A DNA stretch of 32,610 bases, from positions 1 through 32,610 of the forward strand of contig WJIW01000034.1 of assembly GCA_014730065.1 (NCBI GenBank), read 5' to 3'. Under the pieces are notes generated by a model, which had not been told where the DNA came from, searched no databases, and saw only the letters and a program-made list of their open reading frames with translations. The position numbers and the translations under genes are program-made. The DNA comes from Armatimonadia bacterium. GTDB lineage: Bacteria; Armatimonadota; Zipacnadia; UBA1398. Every line of letters starts with the position of its first letter. The first letter of the stretch is position 1. Below, piece after piece: positions 6,851 to 15,261 of the stretch.

Positions 6851-9800
6851 CTACTTCGCCCCCTCGTTGCTAGGAGGGTCTGGCGAGTGCGCTTCGTCTA
6901 GCACCGCGCGCACCGCTTCGGCGAGTCCGGCCAGGGAGTATGGCTTGGGGAGCATCCGCCGAATGCCCAATGCCTCCAGATCGGCGAGCTGTAGATCCTG
7001 GGTATGGCCCGAGACCATGATCGCCGGCAGGTCCGGCCGAAGCTCGCGGAGTCTGCGCATCAGCTCGGTGCCGGTGAGCTGGGGCATGGTGTAGTCGGTG
7101 ATGAGCAGGTCGAAACGCTGGGGCGACTCCCTGACCAGCTCCAGGGCCTGGCGACTATCGGCGACGGCGGTGACCTGGTAGCCCAGACCCGCCAGCATGT
7201 CCTGGTTCATGGTGACCAGGGCCTGCTCATCGTCCACGAACAGTACTCGCTCGCTGCCCTGGGGCACGGCGGGTGTCGCCAGATCGCCAGCGTGCTGGTG
7301 GGAATCGGCGACGGGGAGGTAGACCTCGAAGACCGACCCCTCGCCCTCGATGCTCCGAGCCGTCACGGTGCCGCCATGGCTGCCCACGATGCCGTGGACG
7401 GTGGACAGGCCCAGTCCCGTCCCCTCGCCGGACCGCTTGGTCGAGAAGAAGGGGTCGAAGATGCGCTCGATAACCTCGGGGGGCATGCCACACCCCGTAT
7501 CGGCGACGGAGACGCGGACGTGGGGGCCCGCGGCCCGGCACCTGAGCCGGACCGCGTCCTCGCTGGTAAGCACGACCTCGTCCAGGCGAACGGTCAGAAT
7601 GCCGCCCGACTCGCGCATGGCATGCTGAGCATTGGTGCATAGGTTCATGATGACCTGATGGATCTGGGTGGCGTCGGCGAGCACAACCGGCGACTCCGCG
7701 GGGACCTCCTGCTGAATGCTGATGGTGGATGGCAGGGTCGCCCGCATGAACTTCAGGGCCTCGGTCACGAGGGGTCCCAGCATGATGGGCCGCTGCTCCA
7801 TGTCCGCCCGCCGGCTGAAGGCGAGGATCTGGGCCACCAGGTCCCTCGCCCGCTCCGAGGCAACGAGTACCTCGGAGAGGCTGGAGCGGGCAGCGTCGTC
7901 GCTGTCCAGGGAGCTGAGGGCCAGCTCGGTGTAGCCCATGATCGCCCCCAGGATGTTGTTGAAGTCGTGGGCGATGCCGCCTGCAAGCACACCCAGGCTC
8001 TCCAGGCGCTGCGCCCGGTGCGCCTGACCCTCGAGCCGCTGCCGCTTCGCCTCCCGCTCGCGCTGCTCCGTCACATCCCGGGCGATCTCGACCGCTCCAT
8101 GGACGCTGCCATCGGAGCCCTTGACCGGGTACGACCTTAGGTGCCAGACCCGGCCGTCCGTCGCTGAGAACTCCTCGACCTCAGCGCGACCGGTCTGCAG
8201 GGTGTGGGCCACCGGACAGGACGCACACCGTCCCTCGGCTTTAAAGGGACACGGCTCGCCGACCATGTCCGCCGGCCGGCTACCCACCTCGCGAGCCGCA
8301 GCCCAGTTCGCCCACCGGACCCTGTGATCGGTCGAGAGATACATCACCTGGTCACTCACGCTGTCGAGGATGACCGACTTCTCCCGCTCAGCTTCCCGGA
8401 GTGCCTCGGTCATCGCCTCGCGCTCGGTGATGTCGGAGAAGACGACGATGCCAGCGACGATCTCCTCCGAGCTGTCCCGGACCGGGGCGGCGTTGGCCGA
8501 GATCCTACGGCGCTCCGCCTCGCTTCCGATGAGATAGTGCTCGTCTTCGCTGACCTCGCCTCGCTGGATGGCACGGGACAGGGGAAGCTCCTCGGGCGGA
8601 ACCGGCTCGCCCGACGGGTAGTACACCTGCCACGCCGCGGAGTGCTCCTCGATGGGGATCTCGGTCAGGGACGAGGGATCGGCTTGGCGGATGCGCAGGG
8701 CGGCCCGGTTGGCCAGCCAGATGCGCCCATCGGGCGCGCCAGCGATGAGGATGCCCGCTGGGCTGGCGTCGATAGCCGTGGTCAGGAGGGCGCGAGTCCG
8801 GCTCAGCTCCGAGGTCGCTCGAGCTCGCTCGACCAGCACCCCGAGGGCCGAGGTGTAGAGCGCCAGGCTCTGTTGAAGCGCCTCGTCGACCTCGGCGCCA
8901 GTGATGGCCGCGTCGTTGAACAGGAACCCGATGGGGTCGCCAGCCGAGCGTATGGGCGTCACGGCGATCCAACCGGTGCTGGACCGGTACTCACGGCCAT
9001 CCCGCCAGTAGCTATGCGGTGCCTCCTCGAGCCACCAACCCTTACCCTCGGCTTCGCGCATCCTCTCGCGCCACGAGTCCGCCGTGAACCGTACGTCGCG
9101 CTCATCGGTGGTGCGGCCGTTCATGTCCGTTCCGTACGTTCCCTGGAAGACCCCCTCACGCTGGATGAAGACGCTGCACCGCTCGGCGCCCAGGCGATCC
9201 CTGGCCAGCGCCACGGCGCGCCGGAGTAGCTGGTCCACGTCGGCGATGCCCATCAGGTCCCGCGTGGTCTCGATGACCACGCCCAGGTTGCGCGTCAGGC
9301 GCTCCCGATGCTCCTCCGCCTTGCGGCTCTCGGTGACGTCCTGGCCCGTGCCCATGATGTACTCGATGGTGCCATCGGGCCCACGCAGGGAGGCGTTGGA
9401 CCAGGAGATGAGCCGCTGCTCGCCATCCTTGGTCAGCCAGTGATTCTCGTGCACGCTGGGCAGCCCAGTGCCCGCAAGCTGCTTGAAGGCCCGCTCGACG
9501 CCCTCCCGGTCCTCGTCGGGGATGAGGTGGTCCCAAAGGCGAAGACCGATGATCTCCTCGGCCTGGAACCCGGTGGTGACCTCACAGGCCCGGTTGAAGC
9601 TGACGATGCGGCCCGAAGCATCCAGGACGATCACCAGCGAGCGCACGGTGTCGAGAACCTTGGAGTTCAGGTCACGCTGGCGGCGGAGATGATCCCGGAC
9701 TTCGGCCCAAGGGCCCATGTCTCGCAGAGAGAGCAGGCACAACCCACCGCCCTGACCGGGCAAGGGTGAGAGCCGGGCCTCGTACGGCGGCGCATCAGGC

Positions 9801-10123
9801 GCCCCGAGCCCCGAGAAGATACCGCGGCCAGCCTCGCCATCGGTGACACACCGTTCCACCAGGGCATGAAGCTCTGCGGCGCTGTCCGACCCGGGCGCGC
9901 ACAGCTCGGTGATGCGGCGGCCCCGAACCGTGTCCGGCTCAACACCCAGAAGCCGGCAGCCAGCCTCGTTGGCGGCCTCGATGGCGTCGATCCCCGTCAC
10001 GAAGAGAGGGTCGCGGCATGCCTGGAAGGCGGCCTCGTACACCGCCGAGAGGGGACCCACGTCCTGCGGGGTGCGGGACGGTCCCTGACTTGTAGCCAAG
10101 AAGTGTCGCTCTCGTTCCTCCAT
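6851..10123 (-). CDS. hybrid sensor histidine kinase (PAS/GAF - HisKA - HATPase - REC)
   Basis: PAS repeats; GAF-like region ([24 protein letters not shown]..); H-box ([21 protein letters not shown]); HATPase ([13 protein letters not shown]); C-terminal receiver ([33 protein letters not shown]). Confidence 0.92.
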
Positions 10124-10141: not shown

Positions 10142-10966
10142 TCAGGCGCCGGCAGACGCCCCCAGGAGCTTGCCATGGGCTGCGAGCCGCTCGTGCAGCA
10201 GCCGGACATCCTCGGCTAACATGTCCGGCTTGTCTTCCGGGAACACGCCCACACATGTCGCGTCCCCCGGCCGCAGCGCCTTGGCGACCACATCGAAGGC
10301 CTCCTCGGGATCGTTGCGTCCCGCGGCCATGACCTTGTAGTGGATCGCCGGCTTGCTCAGGCCCTGGACTAGCTCGGTCATGCGGCTCCGATCCTCCTCC
10401 AGAAACCACTCCTTGGAGCCAGCCACATGATCGGGCCGCTCCTCGCGCCGCATGGAGTTGTAGTACGAGCACATGTAGTAGTCTGCTTCCACGTTCTCCT
10501 CGGCCCACACGAGGACTTCCGGATTATGGGCCGCAATGCCCGCGGCCATCCCCTGCTCCTTGATGTGCTCGATCAGGGCCGGGATGTGACCCAGACTGCC
10601 CGCAGCGTAGAGATGATCCATGTACCCACCGTGGATGTGGCATGCGCTGGCCCCGTATCCCTTGGCCGTGGCGACACACCACTCCGGCGACCCTACCTCG
10701 GGACACGTCTGGGCCAGCCAGGTCAGCTTGCCACCTTCGTTGCGGTACTCCAGCAGGACGCGAGCGATGTGGTGATCGGTGCGGCCGAGGACGGCGGTGA
10801 TGCCGAGGGACTCGGCCTGCCACAGCAGGTCTTTGATCCGCTGCGACGTGAAGTAACTGCGCATCCGGGCGTCGACCTCGGGGCTCTGATGGGAGAAGCC
10901 ACTGAAGGGGTTGCTGCCCAGGATGAAGCGGCTCACGTCCACGTTACCCAGGATGACGGTATCCAT
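10142..10966 (-). CDS. conserved hypothetical protein, possible TIM-barrel / aldo-keto-like
   Basis: 274 aa, MDTVILGNVDVSRFILGSNPFSGFSHQSPEVDARMRSYFTSQRIKDLLWQAESLGITAVLGRTDHH. 18 nt upstream of the hybrid kinase on the same strand, so likely cotranscribed. Confidence 0.6.
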   Translation of the reverse strand: MDTVILGNVDVSRFILGSNPFSGFSHQSPEVDARMRSYFTSQRIKDLLWQAESLGITAVLGRTDHHIARVLLEYRNEGGKLTWLAQTCPEVGSPEWCVATAKGYGASACHIHGGYMDHLYAAGSLGHIPALIEHIKEQGMAAGIAAHNPEVLVWAEENVEADYYMCSYYNSMRREERPDHVAGSKEWFLEEDRSRMTELVQGLSKPAIHYKVMAAGRNDPEEAFDVVAKALRPGDATCVGVFPEDKPDMLAEDVRLLHERLAAHGKLLGASAGA

Positions 10967-11090: not shown

Positions 11091-12104
11091 ATGAAGTGCC
11101 CGAGCTGCGGTACGCGCTGGAAGCACGCCGATGGCATGATGTGTGGCTGCGGCTACCAGTTCGTGTTCGACCCCAAGACCGAAGGCCTGGCCGACGGGCG
11201 ATTCGCCGCTGCTCTCCGCCGGGCCAGCGCCAATGGCACGCGCTACTTCACCGCCAATCAGCTCTACTCGGAGTTCGCACGGCGCAGCCGGACCTCCGCG
11301 GTGGGTCCCTTCGTGGCGGCGGGCCTGGCGTCGCTGCTTCTCATCGGAGCCCTGCTCTACCAGCGATGGGGCCTGGCGGCGGTGGGAGCCCTGTTCACCC
11401 TCCTGCTCGTTGGCGTTGGCGTGGGGTGCCTGCGCTCCAGGCCCATCCCCAAGGAGAGGTTCGACCAGCTGCTTGCGAGATGGGTCGCCGCCAAGGGACA
11501 CCCCGACCGGCTCATCACGACCCCGCGCCTCGACACGCCGCCGCCCCGGTGGGCGGAGCATGACATGTACGACTACGGCGTGCGGTGCATTCTGCTAGTC
11601 GACCGGCCCGAGATCGTTGACCTTCTGGTGCTCAACGGCCTACACGCCCAGGAGGGGGCCTTGGTGCTGTCCATGGATGGCTACCCCCAGTACCTCACCG
11701 ATCGGGCGGAGGGTCTTCTGGCTCAGTACCCCGACCTGCCGGTGTACCTCCTCCACGATGCCACCTCCGCGGGCATTGCCGCTGCCCAGCGATTCCACGC
11801 CAGGCCCTCCCTGCCCGTTGAGCCCGAGCGTGTGATCGACCTAGGTCTCTACCCGTCGGACACTCGCCACTTCCGCCGCCTCAAGCAGCTCGGCCTGGGC
11901 AGCGGGAACGAGCAGGCACCCCTCGATCTTCTGCCCTACCCCACCCTCCAGCGGGCCACCCATGTCGCCCTCGCGGCGGGCGTTCCCATCGCCGTGCTAG
12001 CCATGCGACAAGCCGCCGGAGTCGGCGGAACGGGCGGTGACGGCGCGACCTTCCACGACTCCGACACCCGTGGCGGGTGGGACGATGTGAGTGACTTCGG
12101 GTAG
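11091..12104 (+). CDS. membrane protein with N-terminal zinc ribbon, two TM helices and a TOPRIM-like C-terminal domain
   Basis: MKCPSCGTRWKHADGMMCGCGYQFVFDPK (CxxC...CxC); hydrophobic pair VGPFVAAGLASLLLIGALLYQRWGLAAVGALFTLLLVGVGV; VRCILLVDRPEIVDLL...GALVLSMDGYPQYLTDRAEGLLAQYPDLPVYLLHDATSAGIAAAQRF resembles the Spo11/TopoVI-A TOPRIM core. Confidence 0.65.
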   Translation: MKCPSCGTRWKHADGMMCGCGYQFVFDPKTEGLADGRFAAALRRASANGTRYFTANQLYSEFARRSRTSAVGPFVAAGLASLLLIGALLYQRWGLAAVGALFTLLLVGVGVGCLRSRPIPKERFDQLLARWVAAKGHPDRLITTPRLDTPPPRWAEHDMYDYGVRCILLVDRPEIVDLLVLNGLHAQEGALVLSMDGYPQYLTDRAEGLLAQYPDLPVYLLHDATSAGIAAAQRFHARPSLPVEPERVIDLGLYPSDTRHFRRLKQLGLGSGNEQAPLDLLPYPTLQRATHVALAAGVPIAVLAMRQAAGVGGTGGDGATFHDSDTRGGWDDVSDFG

Positions 12105-12124
12105 ATCGGGAGCGCCAGCGCTCG

Positions 12125-13834
12125 ATGCTGTACGGATTCTCAGGACACACCGACGAGAAGCTCTCCATGTCCATGGCGATGGCCCTGGCCCATCGCTGCG
12201 GTGCGCCCACCGCTCACGCCTCGACGTACGGCACACTGGGCTGGGGCCGGCTGGAAGAGAGCCCGGGTGGCGCGGGGATCGCCGTCGACGGGGAGCGCGT
12301 GGCCGCCCTGGCGGGCTTCCTGACCGGCCGCGCCTCGGGCCGGACCGTGCACCACATTCTGGACGCCCATCATCGGCGCGGTGTCGATGCCTTGGGGGAG
12401 CTGGAGGGGGTCTTCGTCCTCGCCCTGATGGACCGTGATCGGGTCCACCTGGTGCGCGATCGGGCCGGGGCCCGCACATTGTACTACGGGGTCCATGGCG
12501 GCAGGCTACGCTTCGCGTGTGAGCCCAAGGGGGTGCTCGCCGACTCTTCCTTCCCCCGCCGCCTGCGTCCGGGCGCCGTGGCCCAGTACCTAACGTACAG
12601 CTTCGTGCCCGGAGCGGGTACCATGCTGGAAGACCTGCATGAGCTGCTGCCAGGTCATCGGCTGGAGTGGCACAGTGGCACCGTGCGGGTCGTGCCTTTG
12701 CCGCCGGAGCGGATCGAGCTGCCAGGACGGTCGGGCAACTGGCCGGCGGTGCTTTCGAGCACCATAGGCGACGCCGTGGAAGACCGCCGCCCCGCAGGGC
12801 AGCCCGTGGGCGCCTTCCTCTCGGGCGGCATCGACTCCAGCATCGTGGTGGCCGAGCTGGCCGCTCGTCACGACGCCCCGGTACGAACCTACTCCATACA
12901 CTTCGGACCGCCCCACCTGAACGAGCTGCCCTTCGCCGCCGCCGTCGCAGAGCGGTGCCGAACCGATCACACCGAGGTGCTGATACGACCCCGGGGGTTC
13001 GCGCCGCGTCTTCGTCAGGCGATCTGGCATCTGGACGATCCCATCGGTGACCCCATCACGGTGCCGAACTTCGAGCTGGCTCGCCGGGTCTCCGGCGACG
13101 TGTCACACGTCTTCAACGGCGAGGGCGGCGACCCGCTGTTCGGTGGCCCGAAGAACCTGCCGATGCTCCTTCACCACTGGTACGGTGGCCCCGGCCATGG
13201 TCCGGGACACCGCGAGCGGGCGTATCTCGAATCATACCGGCGCGGCTACTCCGAGCTGGAGCAGCTCCTGACGCCCGAGATCCTCGCCGGGGTCGACACG
13301 GAGCGGGATCTCGAGGGCCCGCTCCAACCCTTCCTTTCCGGCCCGGGGGAGCCGAGCATGCTCCATCGCCTGCTCAGGGCCAACACCAAGCTCAAGGGGG
13401 CGCACCTAATCCTCCCCAAGGTGGATCGCATGATGGCGGCCCATGGCCTCGTGCCTCTTTCGCCCCTGTTCGATGAGAGGCTCATCGCCCTCAGTCTGGC
13501 CATGCCCCCGGAGTGCAAGCTGCGAGCGGGTGTGGAGAAGGTCGTCCTGAAGGAAGCCTACCGGGGCCGCTTGCCCCGGGAGGTGGTCGACCGCCCCAAG
13601 AGCGGCATGCGTGTGCCCGTGCGTGCGTGGTTCCGCAGGGAGCTCAGGCGCTATGCCCGGTCGGTTCTGAGCTCGAAGGCCCTCGCGGCGGCCGGGATCT
13701 TCCGGCCCGAGCGGGTGGCCCAATGGCTTCGGTACGATACCGAGGAGCACGAGAGCCGGTATGGGCTCTGGCTCTGGATGCTGCTGACCTTCGAGCTTTG
13801 GCGCCGTATCGTCCTCGAGGGTGAGGCAGCGTGA
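12125..13834 (+). CDS. asparagine synthetase B-like ATP-pyrophosphatase (N-terminal Ntn domain lacks Cys2)
   Basis: PP-loop GAFLSGGIDSSIVVAELAARH; FNGEGGDPLFGG; LKEAYRGRLPREVVDRPKSGMRVPVRAWFRRELRRYA. N-terminus is MLYGFSGHTDE, not MCGIAG. Confidence 0.88.
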   Translation: MLYGFSGHTDEKLSMSMAMALAHRCGAPTAHASTYGTLGWGRLEESPGGAGIAVDGERVAALAGFLTGRASGRTVHHILDAHHRRGVDALGELEGVFVLALMDRDRVHLVRDRAGARTLYYGVHGGRLRFACEPKGVLADSSFPRRLRPGAVAQYLTYSFVPGAGTMLEDLHELLPGHRLEWHSGTVRVVPLPPERIELPGRSGNWPAVLSSTIGDAVEDRRPAGQPVGAFLSGGIDSSIVVAELAARHDAPVRTYSIHFGPPHLNELPFAAAVAERCRTDHTEVLIRPRGFAPRLRQAIWHLDDPIGDPITVPNFELARRVSGDVSHVFNGEGGDPLFGGPKNLPMLLHHWYGGPGHGPGHRERAYLESYRRGYSELEQLLTPEILAGVDTERDLEGPLQPFLSGPGEPSMLHRLLRANTKLKGAHLILPKVDRMMAAHGLVPLSPLFDERLIALSLAMPPECKLRAGVEKVVLKEAYRGRLPREVVDRPKSGMRVPVRAWFRRELRRYARSVLSSKALAAAGIFRPERVAQWLRYDTEEHESRYGLWLWMLLTFELWRRIVLEGEAA

Positions 13835-15261
13835 TCGAGCCGCTCCTGAGCCCATGGACGGGCGGCCTCTGCGTCCTCGGCTATGCGGGCCTGATGATCG
13901 CCCTCGCCCTCCTATGGGGACGACGCTCGGGCGATGACAAAGACTCATTCCTCCTCGCCTCCCGGGGCGTTGGCGTGGGCTCGGGCGCACTTTCCATCGC
14001 CGCTACCTGGATCTGGGCCCCGGCCCTTTTCCTGTCGGCCCAGAAGGCGTACACCGAGGGGGTTGCGGGCCTGTTCTGGTTCACCGCCCCCAACGTGCTG
14101 TGCCTGATCCTCTTCGCGTGGTTCGCGCGTCGCGCGAGGCGACTGGCGCCCCGGGGCTTCACCCTGTCGGCGTTCATGCGTGACCGGCATGGCGCGGCGG
14201 TCCACGGCGCCTACGTGGTCGAGCTGGTGGGGTTGTCGACATGCTCCTTTGGTGTGCAGCTTCTGGCGGGAGGAGGCGTCATCGCCGCCTTGACGGGGCT
14301 TCCCTACCTAGGCGTGACCGCCGCCATGGCCCTCGCCGCCCTGGCCTACTCCGTCGTCTCCGGCTTGCGGGCATCGGTCATCACCGACGTGGCCCAGATG
14401 CTGCTGATCCTGACGGTCAGCGCGGGTGTGGTTCCTTGGGCCGTGAGCCGAGCGGGCGGGCTCGACGCTGTGATCGCCGGCCTGGGTGGAGTCACGGGCC
14501 AGTACGGGTCACCCTTTTCGAGTGCGTCGGCACCCCTGGCCTTGTCCTTCGGCTTGCCGGTGACTATCGGCCTCCTATCGGGGCCGTTCGGGGACCAGGC
14601 CTTCTGGCAGCGGGCCTTCGCGATGCGGGAGAGCGCCGTGGCCCCGGCCTTTGTCTGGGGCGCCCTGCTGTTCGCCGTGGTACCTCTCACCCTGTCGCTC
14701 CTGGGCTTCTCGGCGGCGGGCATGGGGCTGATCGTGGAAGATCCGTCTCGGGTGAACGTGGCTGTGGTCGCGGAGCTGCTGCCCCGCTGGGCGCTGGTGC
14801 CCTTCGTGATCATGCTGCTGTCGGGTCTCTCGTCGACGCTGGACTCCTGCCTCTGCGCCGTTTCATCCATCGCCGGTCACGACCCGGCCCGGGCGCCAAG
14901 GAGCCATGGCTGGCGCCGCCGAGCCCTGGTGGCCATGACGGTTCTGGCCGCGGGGGCGTGGGGCCTGGCCGCCGTTCCCGGCCTGACGGTGCTGCACCTG
15001 TTCCTGTTCTACGGGATCCTCCGCGCGTCCACCCTCTTGCCGACTGTCCTCACCCTTTTGGGGATCGGTCTGCCCTCGCGCTGGGTCTTCTGGGGCATCG
15101 TGGGGTCCATGGGTGTCGGGCTGCCCGTATTCGCCCATGGGAACCTATCGGGCAGCACCACCGGGATTGTGGCGGGGGCCCTGGCGGGCATGCTACCCGC
15201 GGGCCTCGTGCCGCTCTTGGCACGGTCGCTGGACCGGCGCACCGGCGGGCCTCGGGCCTGA
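13831..15261 (+). CDS. sodium:solute symporter (SSS) family protein
   Basis: Multi-TM protein; motif SIAATWIWAPALFLSAQKAYTEGVAGLFWFTAPN and overall SSS layout. GTG start overlaps the upstream stop (GTGA). Confidence 0.85.
   Translation: MIEPLLSPWTGGLCVLGYAGLMIALALLWGRRSGDDKDSFLLASRGVGVGSGALSIAATWIWAPALFLSAQKAYTEGVAGLFWFTAPNVLCLILFAWFARRARRLAPRGFTLSAFMRDRHGAAVHGAYVVELVGLSTCSFGVQLLAGGGVIAALTGLPYLGVTAAMALAALAYSVVSGLRASVITDVAQMLLILTVSAGVVPWAVSRAGGLDAVIAGLGGVTGQYGSPFSSASAPLALSFGLPVTIGLLSGPFGDQAFWQRAFAMRESAVAPAFVWGALLFAVVPLTLSLLGFSAAGMGLIVEDPSRVNVAVVAELLPRWALVPFVIMLLSGLSSTLDSCLCAVSSIAGHDPARAPRSHGWRRRALVAMTVLAAGAWGLAAVPGLTVLHLFLFYGILRASTLLPTVLTLLGIGLPSRWVFWGIVGSMGVGLPVFAHGNLSGSTTGIVAGALAGMLPAGLVPLLARSLDRRTGGPRA

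Follow-up and report, generated by a model that had tools for sequence, protein, structure and literature searches.

The first two of three neighbouring genes at positions 11091-15261 of a 32,610-nucleotide contig from an Armatimonadia bacterium (GenBank GCA_014730065.1, contig WJIW01000034.1; the whole stretch was analysed and is called the window below) form a conserved, previously undescribed module. Gene 1 encodes a putative membrane-anchored relative of Spo11/topoisomerase VI subunit A (Topo VI-A) that ends in the residues DFG, and gene 2 an AsnB-type ligase without the glutaminase cysteine. We propose, with a probability of roughly 0.45, that the two proteins constitute a ligation module in which the ligase activates the FG tail; all that goes beyond a conserved pair with a conserved ending we infer.

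When 84,980 species genomes were scanned with the ligase, a single relative emerged (43% identity), from an uncultured Microscilla (Bacteroidota), and a gene-1 homologue lies directly upstream of it. Gene 1 as query gave five further genomes among 291 of the window's phylum, each with gene 1 beside one or two AsnB-like genes. The pair was also found on two plasmids, Cy782202 of Gloeothece verrucosa and a plasmid of Streptomyces sp. NBC_01237, and in a second Bacteroidota genome (G379), where the order cupin, gene 1, ligase is that of the Microscilla genome. The hosts span at least four phyla: the window's own, Bacteroidota, Cyanobacteriota and Actinomycetota. Both genes are present in 6 of the 291 genomes (in one of the six, G059, the ligase is cut by the contig end and the pair was counted from the locus) and in 2 of 391 sampled genomes of the Microscilla order (Cytophagales); neither sample contained a ligase orthologue without gene 1, and a genome in these sets has either both genes or neither. 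Within the phylum the ligase orthologues share 42-43% identity, and other AsnBs reach at most 35% and 183 bits. The two Microscilla-type genomes score ∼ 480 bits (next match, 146) and are the same two that carry a full-length gene 1, and the two plasmid records with gene 1 give the top plasmid ligase matches (308 and 313 bits; next, at most 191). In a maximum-likelihood tree of 33 AsnBs, the direct partners of gene 1 (AsnB1) form a clade with support of 99/94 and the second copies found in some clusters (AsnB2) a clade with 100/100; together they form one clade (100/99), apart from 22 other AsnBs. The sister of the window ligase in this tree is the Microscilla ligase and not a ligase from the window's phylum, consistent with horizontal transfer.

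The gene-1 protein of the window terminates exactly in -DFG after a disordered tail, and all gene-1 proteins outside Streptomyces terminate in -[DS]FG, though the preceding tails vary in length and sequence. By lineage the endings are DFG, DFG, SFG, SFG and SFG, and the 40 residues before them are unalignable. The three Streptomyces gene-1 copies have no [DS]FG end. There, a separate 179-aa protein, whose gene lies between the gene-1 copies and that of the ligase, carries a tail rich in Gly, Ser and Asp that ends in GAWSDDDFG; it is unrelated to gene 1 and has no Spo11-like domains. That the ending recurs on this unrelated protein is difficult to account for without selection for it. The nine module loci hold 1077 open reading frames (ORFs) of 40 aa or more, and nine of these have a [DS]FG end, namely eight gene-1 proteins and the Streptomyces tailed protein, and related gene-1 copies with the shared ending are not independent events in this count; background loci gave 0 of 880 genes. 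A pattern search for DFG in the 5.65 Mb genome of the window returned 12 matches, of which gene 1 alone is an ORF end, and the idea that DFG is a tag in general use in this genome was rejected on these grounds. When D[TSC]FG ends were sought in G097, G058 and the Microscilla genome, the credible matches were only gene-1 proteins, the remainder being short ORFs or no ORF.

The three genes of the window and their features are as follows (pLDDT, predicted local distance difference test score).

11091-12104, + strand: gene 1, 337 aa; zinc ribbon, winged helix, transmembrane hairpin, Toprim-like domain and disordered tail with DFG end (ORF, homologues, alignments).
11097-11150, + strand: putative zinc ribbon of gene 1, Cys 3, 6, 18 and 20 (CxxC...CxC; CxxC...CxxC in relatives); these Cys are invariant in the alignment.
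11193-11300, + strand: winged-helix-like segment of gene 1; FTxxQLYx corresponds to the Spo11/Top6A catalytic-Tyr segment RQLYY, with Ser60 at the Tyr position (alignment to Cytophagales Topo VI-like fusions, AlphaFold2 model).
11307-11426, + strand: predicted transmembrane hairpin of gene 1, two hydrophobic helices in residues 73-112 (helices 73-93 and 95-112 in the AlphaFold2 model).
11586-11840, + strand: Toprim-like domain of gene 1 with incomplete metal ligands, E replaced by D171 and DxD by D223-A-T225 (Pfam and PDB profiles, Foldseek, alignment).
11979-12101, + strand: Gly-rich, low-confidence C-terminal tail of gene 1, residues 297-337 (pLDDT < 50; final residues 26-30).
12093-12104, + strand: conserved C-terminal DFG and stop codon of gene 1 (sequence comparison, genome pattern search).
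12125-13834, + strand: gene 2, Cys-less AsnB-type ligase, 569 aa (Pfam, tree, PDB profile, fold).
12125-12268, + strand: eroded N-terminal half of the glutaminase domain of gene 2; no MCG, residues 1-48 unpredicted.
12758-13804, + strand: intact synthetase (PP-loop) domain of gene 2; LSGGIDS 232-238, GEGGD 332-336, K492.
13831-15261, + strand: gene 3, sodium:solute symporter, 476 aa (Pfam, homologue comparison, locus comparison).

Gene 1 is, by its homology, a domesticated relative of Spo11/Topo VI-A that probably no longer cleaves DNA, because fold, profile and alignment relate it to these enzymes but the catalytic Tyr and the acidic triad are not kept. Pfam gives TOP6A-Spo11_Toprim only, below threshold (0.0063). 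The AlphaFold2 model (mean pLDDT 61) has an α/β domain at residues 166-250 and an unstructured tail; Foldseek ranks 1-4 are Topo VI subunit A, with weak E-values (0.01-0.04), and a profile of the gene-1 family finds Topo VI-A sequences in the PDB at 0.0056. The same profile matches the A-like half of Topo VI-like fusions from five genomes of the Microscilla order at ∼ 1e-8 to 1e-9. These fusions of ∼ 770-800 aa (L175-L179, in G393, G452, G432, G305 and G461) consist of a GHKL part resembling Topo VI-B and a Top6A-like part that carries the motifs SLRQLYY and IHDADLSG, and are the closest relatives of gene 1 found outside the module. Their alignment with gene 1 spans SLRQLYY/FTxRQLYY, IHDADLSG/LHDATSAG, NLGLEP/DLGLYP and the next segment, and covers most of gene 1. 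The catalytic Tyr is replaced by Ser in the window and by Ala in Microscilla (L022). The acidic triad is likewise incomplete, with D for E and DAT for DxD, and HNAN in Gloeothece. On the Streptomyces sp. NBC_01237 plasmid, gene 1 is present as three tandem paralogues (L114 5522-8684), the third without the zinc ribbon, and two of the three retain DAD. The Toprim-like domain had been suggested in an original prediction, made from the window alone, together with a zinc ribbon and transmembrane segments, and is now backed by profile, fold and full-length homology. Weak matches to the gene-1 profile in G195, G561 and G670 (E 3e-5 to 5e-4) were set aside as long unrelated ORFs. Viral scans with gene-1 proteins and a phage collection gave no relative, and the viral AsnB loci all lacked gene 1; a viral or phage origin was rejected.

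Gene 2 matches Asn_synthase in Pfam (1.3e-73) and, partially, GATase_7, of which the first 58 positions are missing. The protein starts MLYGFSG, without Cys at position 2. We regard the loss of the Cys as genuine, since ATG 12125 and the upstream in-frame stop TGA 12092-12094 are ten codons apart with no ATG, GTG or TTG between them, which rules out an overlooked upstream start that would restore Cys2. The glutaminase half is eroded in the window (pLDDT < 50 over residues 1-48) and almost wholly absent from the ligases of G056-G059; MCG is missing from all module ligases and present in most other AsnBs compared. The synthetase motifs, LSGGxDS, GEGGD and the catalytic Lys region, are kept, as judged from alignment invariants and alignment with 1CT9/7YLZ. 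The fold is closest to the TsnB9 hydroxyamidotransferase, human ASNS and β-lactam synthetase (∼ 20% identity in fold alignments). Gene 2 scores 209.5 against TIGR01536 (cut-off 267.1), 222 bits against the XrtA amidotransferase model TIGR03108 (cut-off 817) and 211 bits against the NAGGN amidotransferase model TIGR03104 (cut-off 570). Compared with glutamine-dependent AsnB, it retains SGGxDS, GEGxD and the Lys, but has lost Cys2 and lies outside the canonical enzymes in the tree and under the TIGR01536 cut-off. β-Lactam synthetase and the lasso cyclases have an AsnB fold without glutaminase activity, and in them an amine replaces ammonia as the nucleophile. By analogy, the gene-2 enzyme should still adenylate a carboxylate but require an amine other than ammonia from glutamine. 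The original prediction of gene 2 as an AsnB-like enzyme that activates carboxylates and has no glutaminase Cys is borne out by Pfam, the motifs and the unambiguous N-terminus.

With an invariant free C-terminus beside a carboxylate-adenylating ligase, it is simplest to take the FG carboxylate as the acyl substrate. We envisage that the ligase would bind the FG tail of its partner protein, adenylate the carboxylate of the C-terminal glycine with ATP and pass the activated glycine to an amine other than glutamine-derived ammonia, giving an amide. The tailed protein would be a membrane-tethered carrier or a tagged protein, in a role like that of LysW towards LysX. Where the operon also encodes AsnB2 and, as in Gloeothece, a pyridoxal phosphate (PLP) decarboxylase of LysA type, these would extend and decarboxylate the attached group, and in the window's organism only, the neighbouring symporter may import a substrate. 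The original prediction made gene 1 a nucleic-acid- or nucleotide-related membrane protein; a role as the ligase's carrier or substrate is more likely than one as a nucleic-acid protein in its own right. More tentatively, the module may represent a distinct bacterial class of protein conjugation or carrier systems, in which a glutaminase-less AsnB adenylates the -[DS]FG glycine on a catalytically dead, membrane-anchored Spo11/Topo VI-A descendant (in Streptomyces, on the separate tailed protein) and joins it to an amine; such a class would do with a PP-loop enzyme what LysW/LysX or C-terminal activation of the ubiquitin type does by other means.

Several points weigh against tail activation. 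A conserved C-terminal tail can equally be a docking or sorting motif, as is the tip of SSB. PesC, the best-described AsnB enzyme that acts on a peptide C-terminus, takes its ammonia from glutamine, and the known Cys-less AsnBs act on side-chains or small molecules. The last residue of the tail is Gly, as opposed to the side-chain carboxylate used in LysW, and the lineages found are few and share ancestry.

A different role for the tail would be that of a non-covalent docking peptide, like the acidic tip of SSB, which brings the ligase to the membrane-anchored Spo11-like protein; the ligase would then act on a small molecule or on some other protein. The tail is indeed acidic, flexible and C-terminal, the folded domains of gene 1 could bind ligands or nucleic acid, and gene 1 and the ligase are linked. 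However, docking rarely needs an invariant Gly at the extreme C-terminus, the partner enzyme activates carboxylates, and the Streptomyces tail sits on a small protein that has no Spo11-like domains; we regard this role as unlikely. A natural-product pathway on a protein scaffold, like that of the peptide aminoacyl-tRNA ligases (PEARLs), would have its first step in common with tail activation, but its product would be the attached group and not the protein: AsnB1, AsnB2 and the PLP decarboxylase would build a small molecule on the tail that is later cut off. There are precedents for such chemistry (PMC12715798), and genes for AsnB2, the PLP decarboxylase and a cupin occur in some clusters. The pathway is nevertheless improbable given that no protease or obvious tailoring gene is common to the clusters and that the minimal pair of the window has no second enzyme, and it leaves the membrane-anchored Spo11-like domain unexplained.

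Gene 3 bears on a third reading. Its product matches PF00474 (SSF) at 3.5e-11, with 43.1 bits against a gathering cut-off of 22.8, and the families of both the symporter and the AsnB-like enzyme handle small solutes. Together with the GTGA overlap of genes 2 and 3, this had suggested a three-gene uptake-and-ligase module, in which the symporter imports a substrate that the AsnB-like enzyme ligates. The eight other module loci contain no relative of the symporter, however, and within the class the closest relatives, encoded on other contigs, share only 28-30% identity with it. A symporter as conserved third component was rejected on this basis: gene 3 is a local passenger or a local addition, outside the conserved module, and dedicated uptake and ligation is the least probable explanation of all. 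The refuting condition named with the original proposal of a linked set, homologues that are mostly unlinked, gave a divided result: genes 1 and 2 were linked in every case across the four or more phyla above, and gene 3 was not; the -[DS]FG ending, the spread of the pair over multiple phyla and the independence of the symporter had not been part of that proposal. It is also very improbable, if slightly less so, that the module serves anti-phage or anti-plasmid defence or another conflict, with a nucleic-acid-sensing membrane Spo11-like protein modified by a PP-loop ligase in the manner of QueC-family conjugation in type IV CBASS (cyclic oligonucleotide-based antiphage signalling system). A sparse, cross-phylum and plasmid-borne distribution, the Spo11/Topo VI-A ancestry of gene 1 and the protein conjugation by a PP-loop enzyme known in CBASS (PMC11996544) are in its favour, but PADLOC returns only a weak, generic QueC match to one AsnB2 (E ∼ 0.001), phages and viruses gave no homologue, the neighbours are not defence genes, and the metal ligands and catalytic Tyr of gene 1 are lost.

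Some clusters contain additional genes. A second AsnB (AsnB2) and a small membrane protein are present in G097, G056-59 and Gloeothece. The latter has a helical domain at its N-terminus, is encoded first in the cluster version of four or five genes in three lineages (L028 11248-12042, L029 3169-3960 and L113 3599-4222) and matches no Pfam family above cut-off. In the Gloeothece plasmid cluster (L113 3599-10417), a LysA-like PLP decarboxylase is encoded between AsnB2 and gene 1, and AsnB1 is convergent; the plasmid also encodes a protelomerase-family protein (12081-13442). BtrK and MccE, relatives in the LysA clade of decarboxylases, act on carrier- or peptide-bound amino acids (PMC7857480). 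A cupin gene lies directly upstream of gene 1 in Bacteroidota (L022 6072-6746, L182 8404-9078) and Streptomyces (L114 4806-5525), and not in the window. By analogy, the accessory genes suggest that the tail may receive an amino acid for later processing, or that a tag may be placed on the membrane protein; the data choose neither.

In the window, the three genes lie on the + strand with a 20-nt gap between genes 1 and 2 and a 4-nt GTGA overlap between genes 2 and 3, an arrangement that agrees with the original description of ORFs and spacing. A search for promoter and terminator consensus gave nothing above chance, as compared with shuffles, and the GC content over the three genes is that of the window. 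Two genes run divergently from the module, a large PAS/GAF-type hybrid sensor histidine kinase with a receiver domain (6851-10123, - strand; identified by eye) and a small enzyme-like gene (10142-10966, - strand), and no link of either to the module was seen.

If tail activation is correct, the AsnB/PP-loop family would join the short list of enzyme classes that activate a dedicated protein at its C-terminus so that it can be conjugated or serve as a carrier, and a function would be found for a domesticated, membrane-bound relative of Spo11, the meiotic DNA-cutting enzyme. The sequence alone predicts that a short peptide ending in SDDFG should serve as a substrate. Should this chemistry prove wrong, the gene pair with its conserved ending still stands as a robust module that has no name, present in at least four phyla and on two plasmids.

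The original prediction knew of no named system with this composition, and we found no description of the gene pair in the searchable full-text literature, whose coverage leaves out most subscription journals, so that a prior description is possible. Judged by its sequence features, the module falls outside the known families compared: it lacks the AsnB glutaminase, the Spo11/Topo VI-A catalytic residues, the EDWGE end of LysW and a precursor gene of the type found with ribosomally synthesized and post-translationally modified peptides (RiPPs). With Topo VI-A and Spo11, gene 1 shares the RQLYY-type winged helix, the Toprim domain and C-terminal segments, which align over most of its length; it differs in the added zinc ribbon and transmembrane hairpin as well as in the catalytic Tyr and acidic triad. 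The ligase resembles β-lactam and carbapenam synthetases and the lasso cyclases in having an AsnB fold without glutaminase activity, with a fold match in the case of β-lactam synthetase, but the identity in fold alignments is low (see above) and the module has no precursor or tailoring genes. In type IV CBASS, the QueC-family protein Cap9 is a repurposed PP-loop ATPase that attaches a small molecule at one end of a protein (PMC11996544). Cap9 uses an N-terminus and a deazaguanine, whereas a C-terminus and an amine are predicted for the module, and the PP-loop subfamilies differ.

For the proposed reaction there are precedents among RiPP enzymes. PesC is an AsnB-like enzyme that acts on the C-terminal carboxylate of a peptide (PMC13060819), and TsrC and ScdTA, as cited in that paper, likewise act on peptide C-termini. 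For an AsnB-family enzyme, such action on a ribosomal product is shown there and proposed here. Unlike these enzymes the module ligase has no glutaminase, and its partner is not a short precursor peptide but a protein of 332-429 aa or, in Streptomyces, the 179-aa tailed protein. LysW and ArgW are Zn-binding Cys proteins with an acidic-aromatic C-terminal tail, EDWGE, that is recognized by their own carboxylate-activating ligase, LysX or ArgX (PMC10433800). The module likewise combines a putative Zn protein, in which the Cys residues are conserved, with a C-terminal tail and a dedicated ligase. It differs in that LysX and ArgX are ATP-grasp enzymes and the module ligase is an AsnB/PP-loop (AMP) enzyme, in that its tail ends in -[DS]FG with Gly last rather than in the Glu of EDWGE, and in that its carrier would be a large, membrane-anchored Spo11-like protein rather than a small one. 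In how it would work, it is LysW/LysX that the module resembles.

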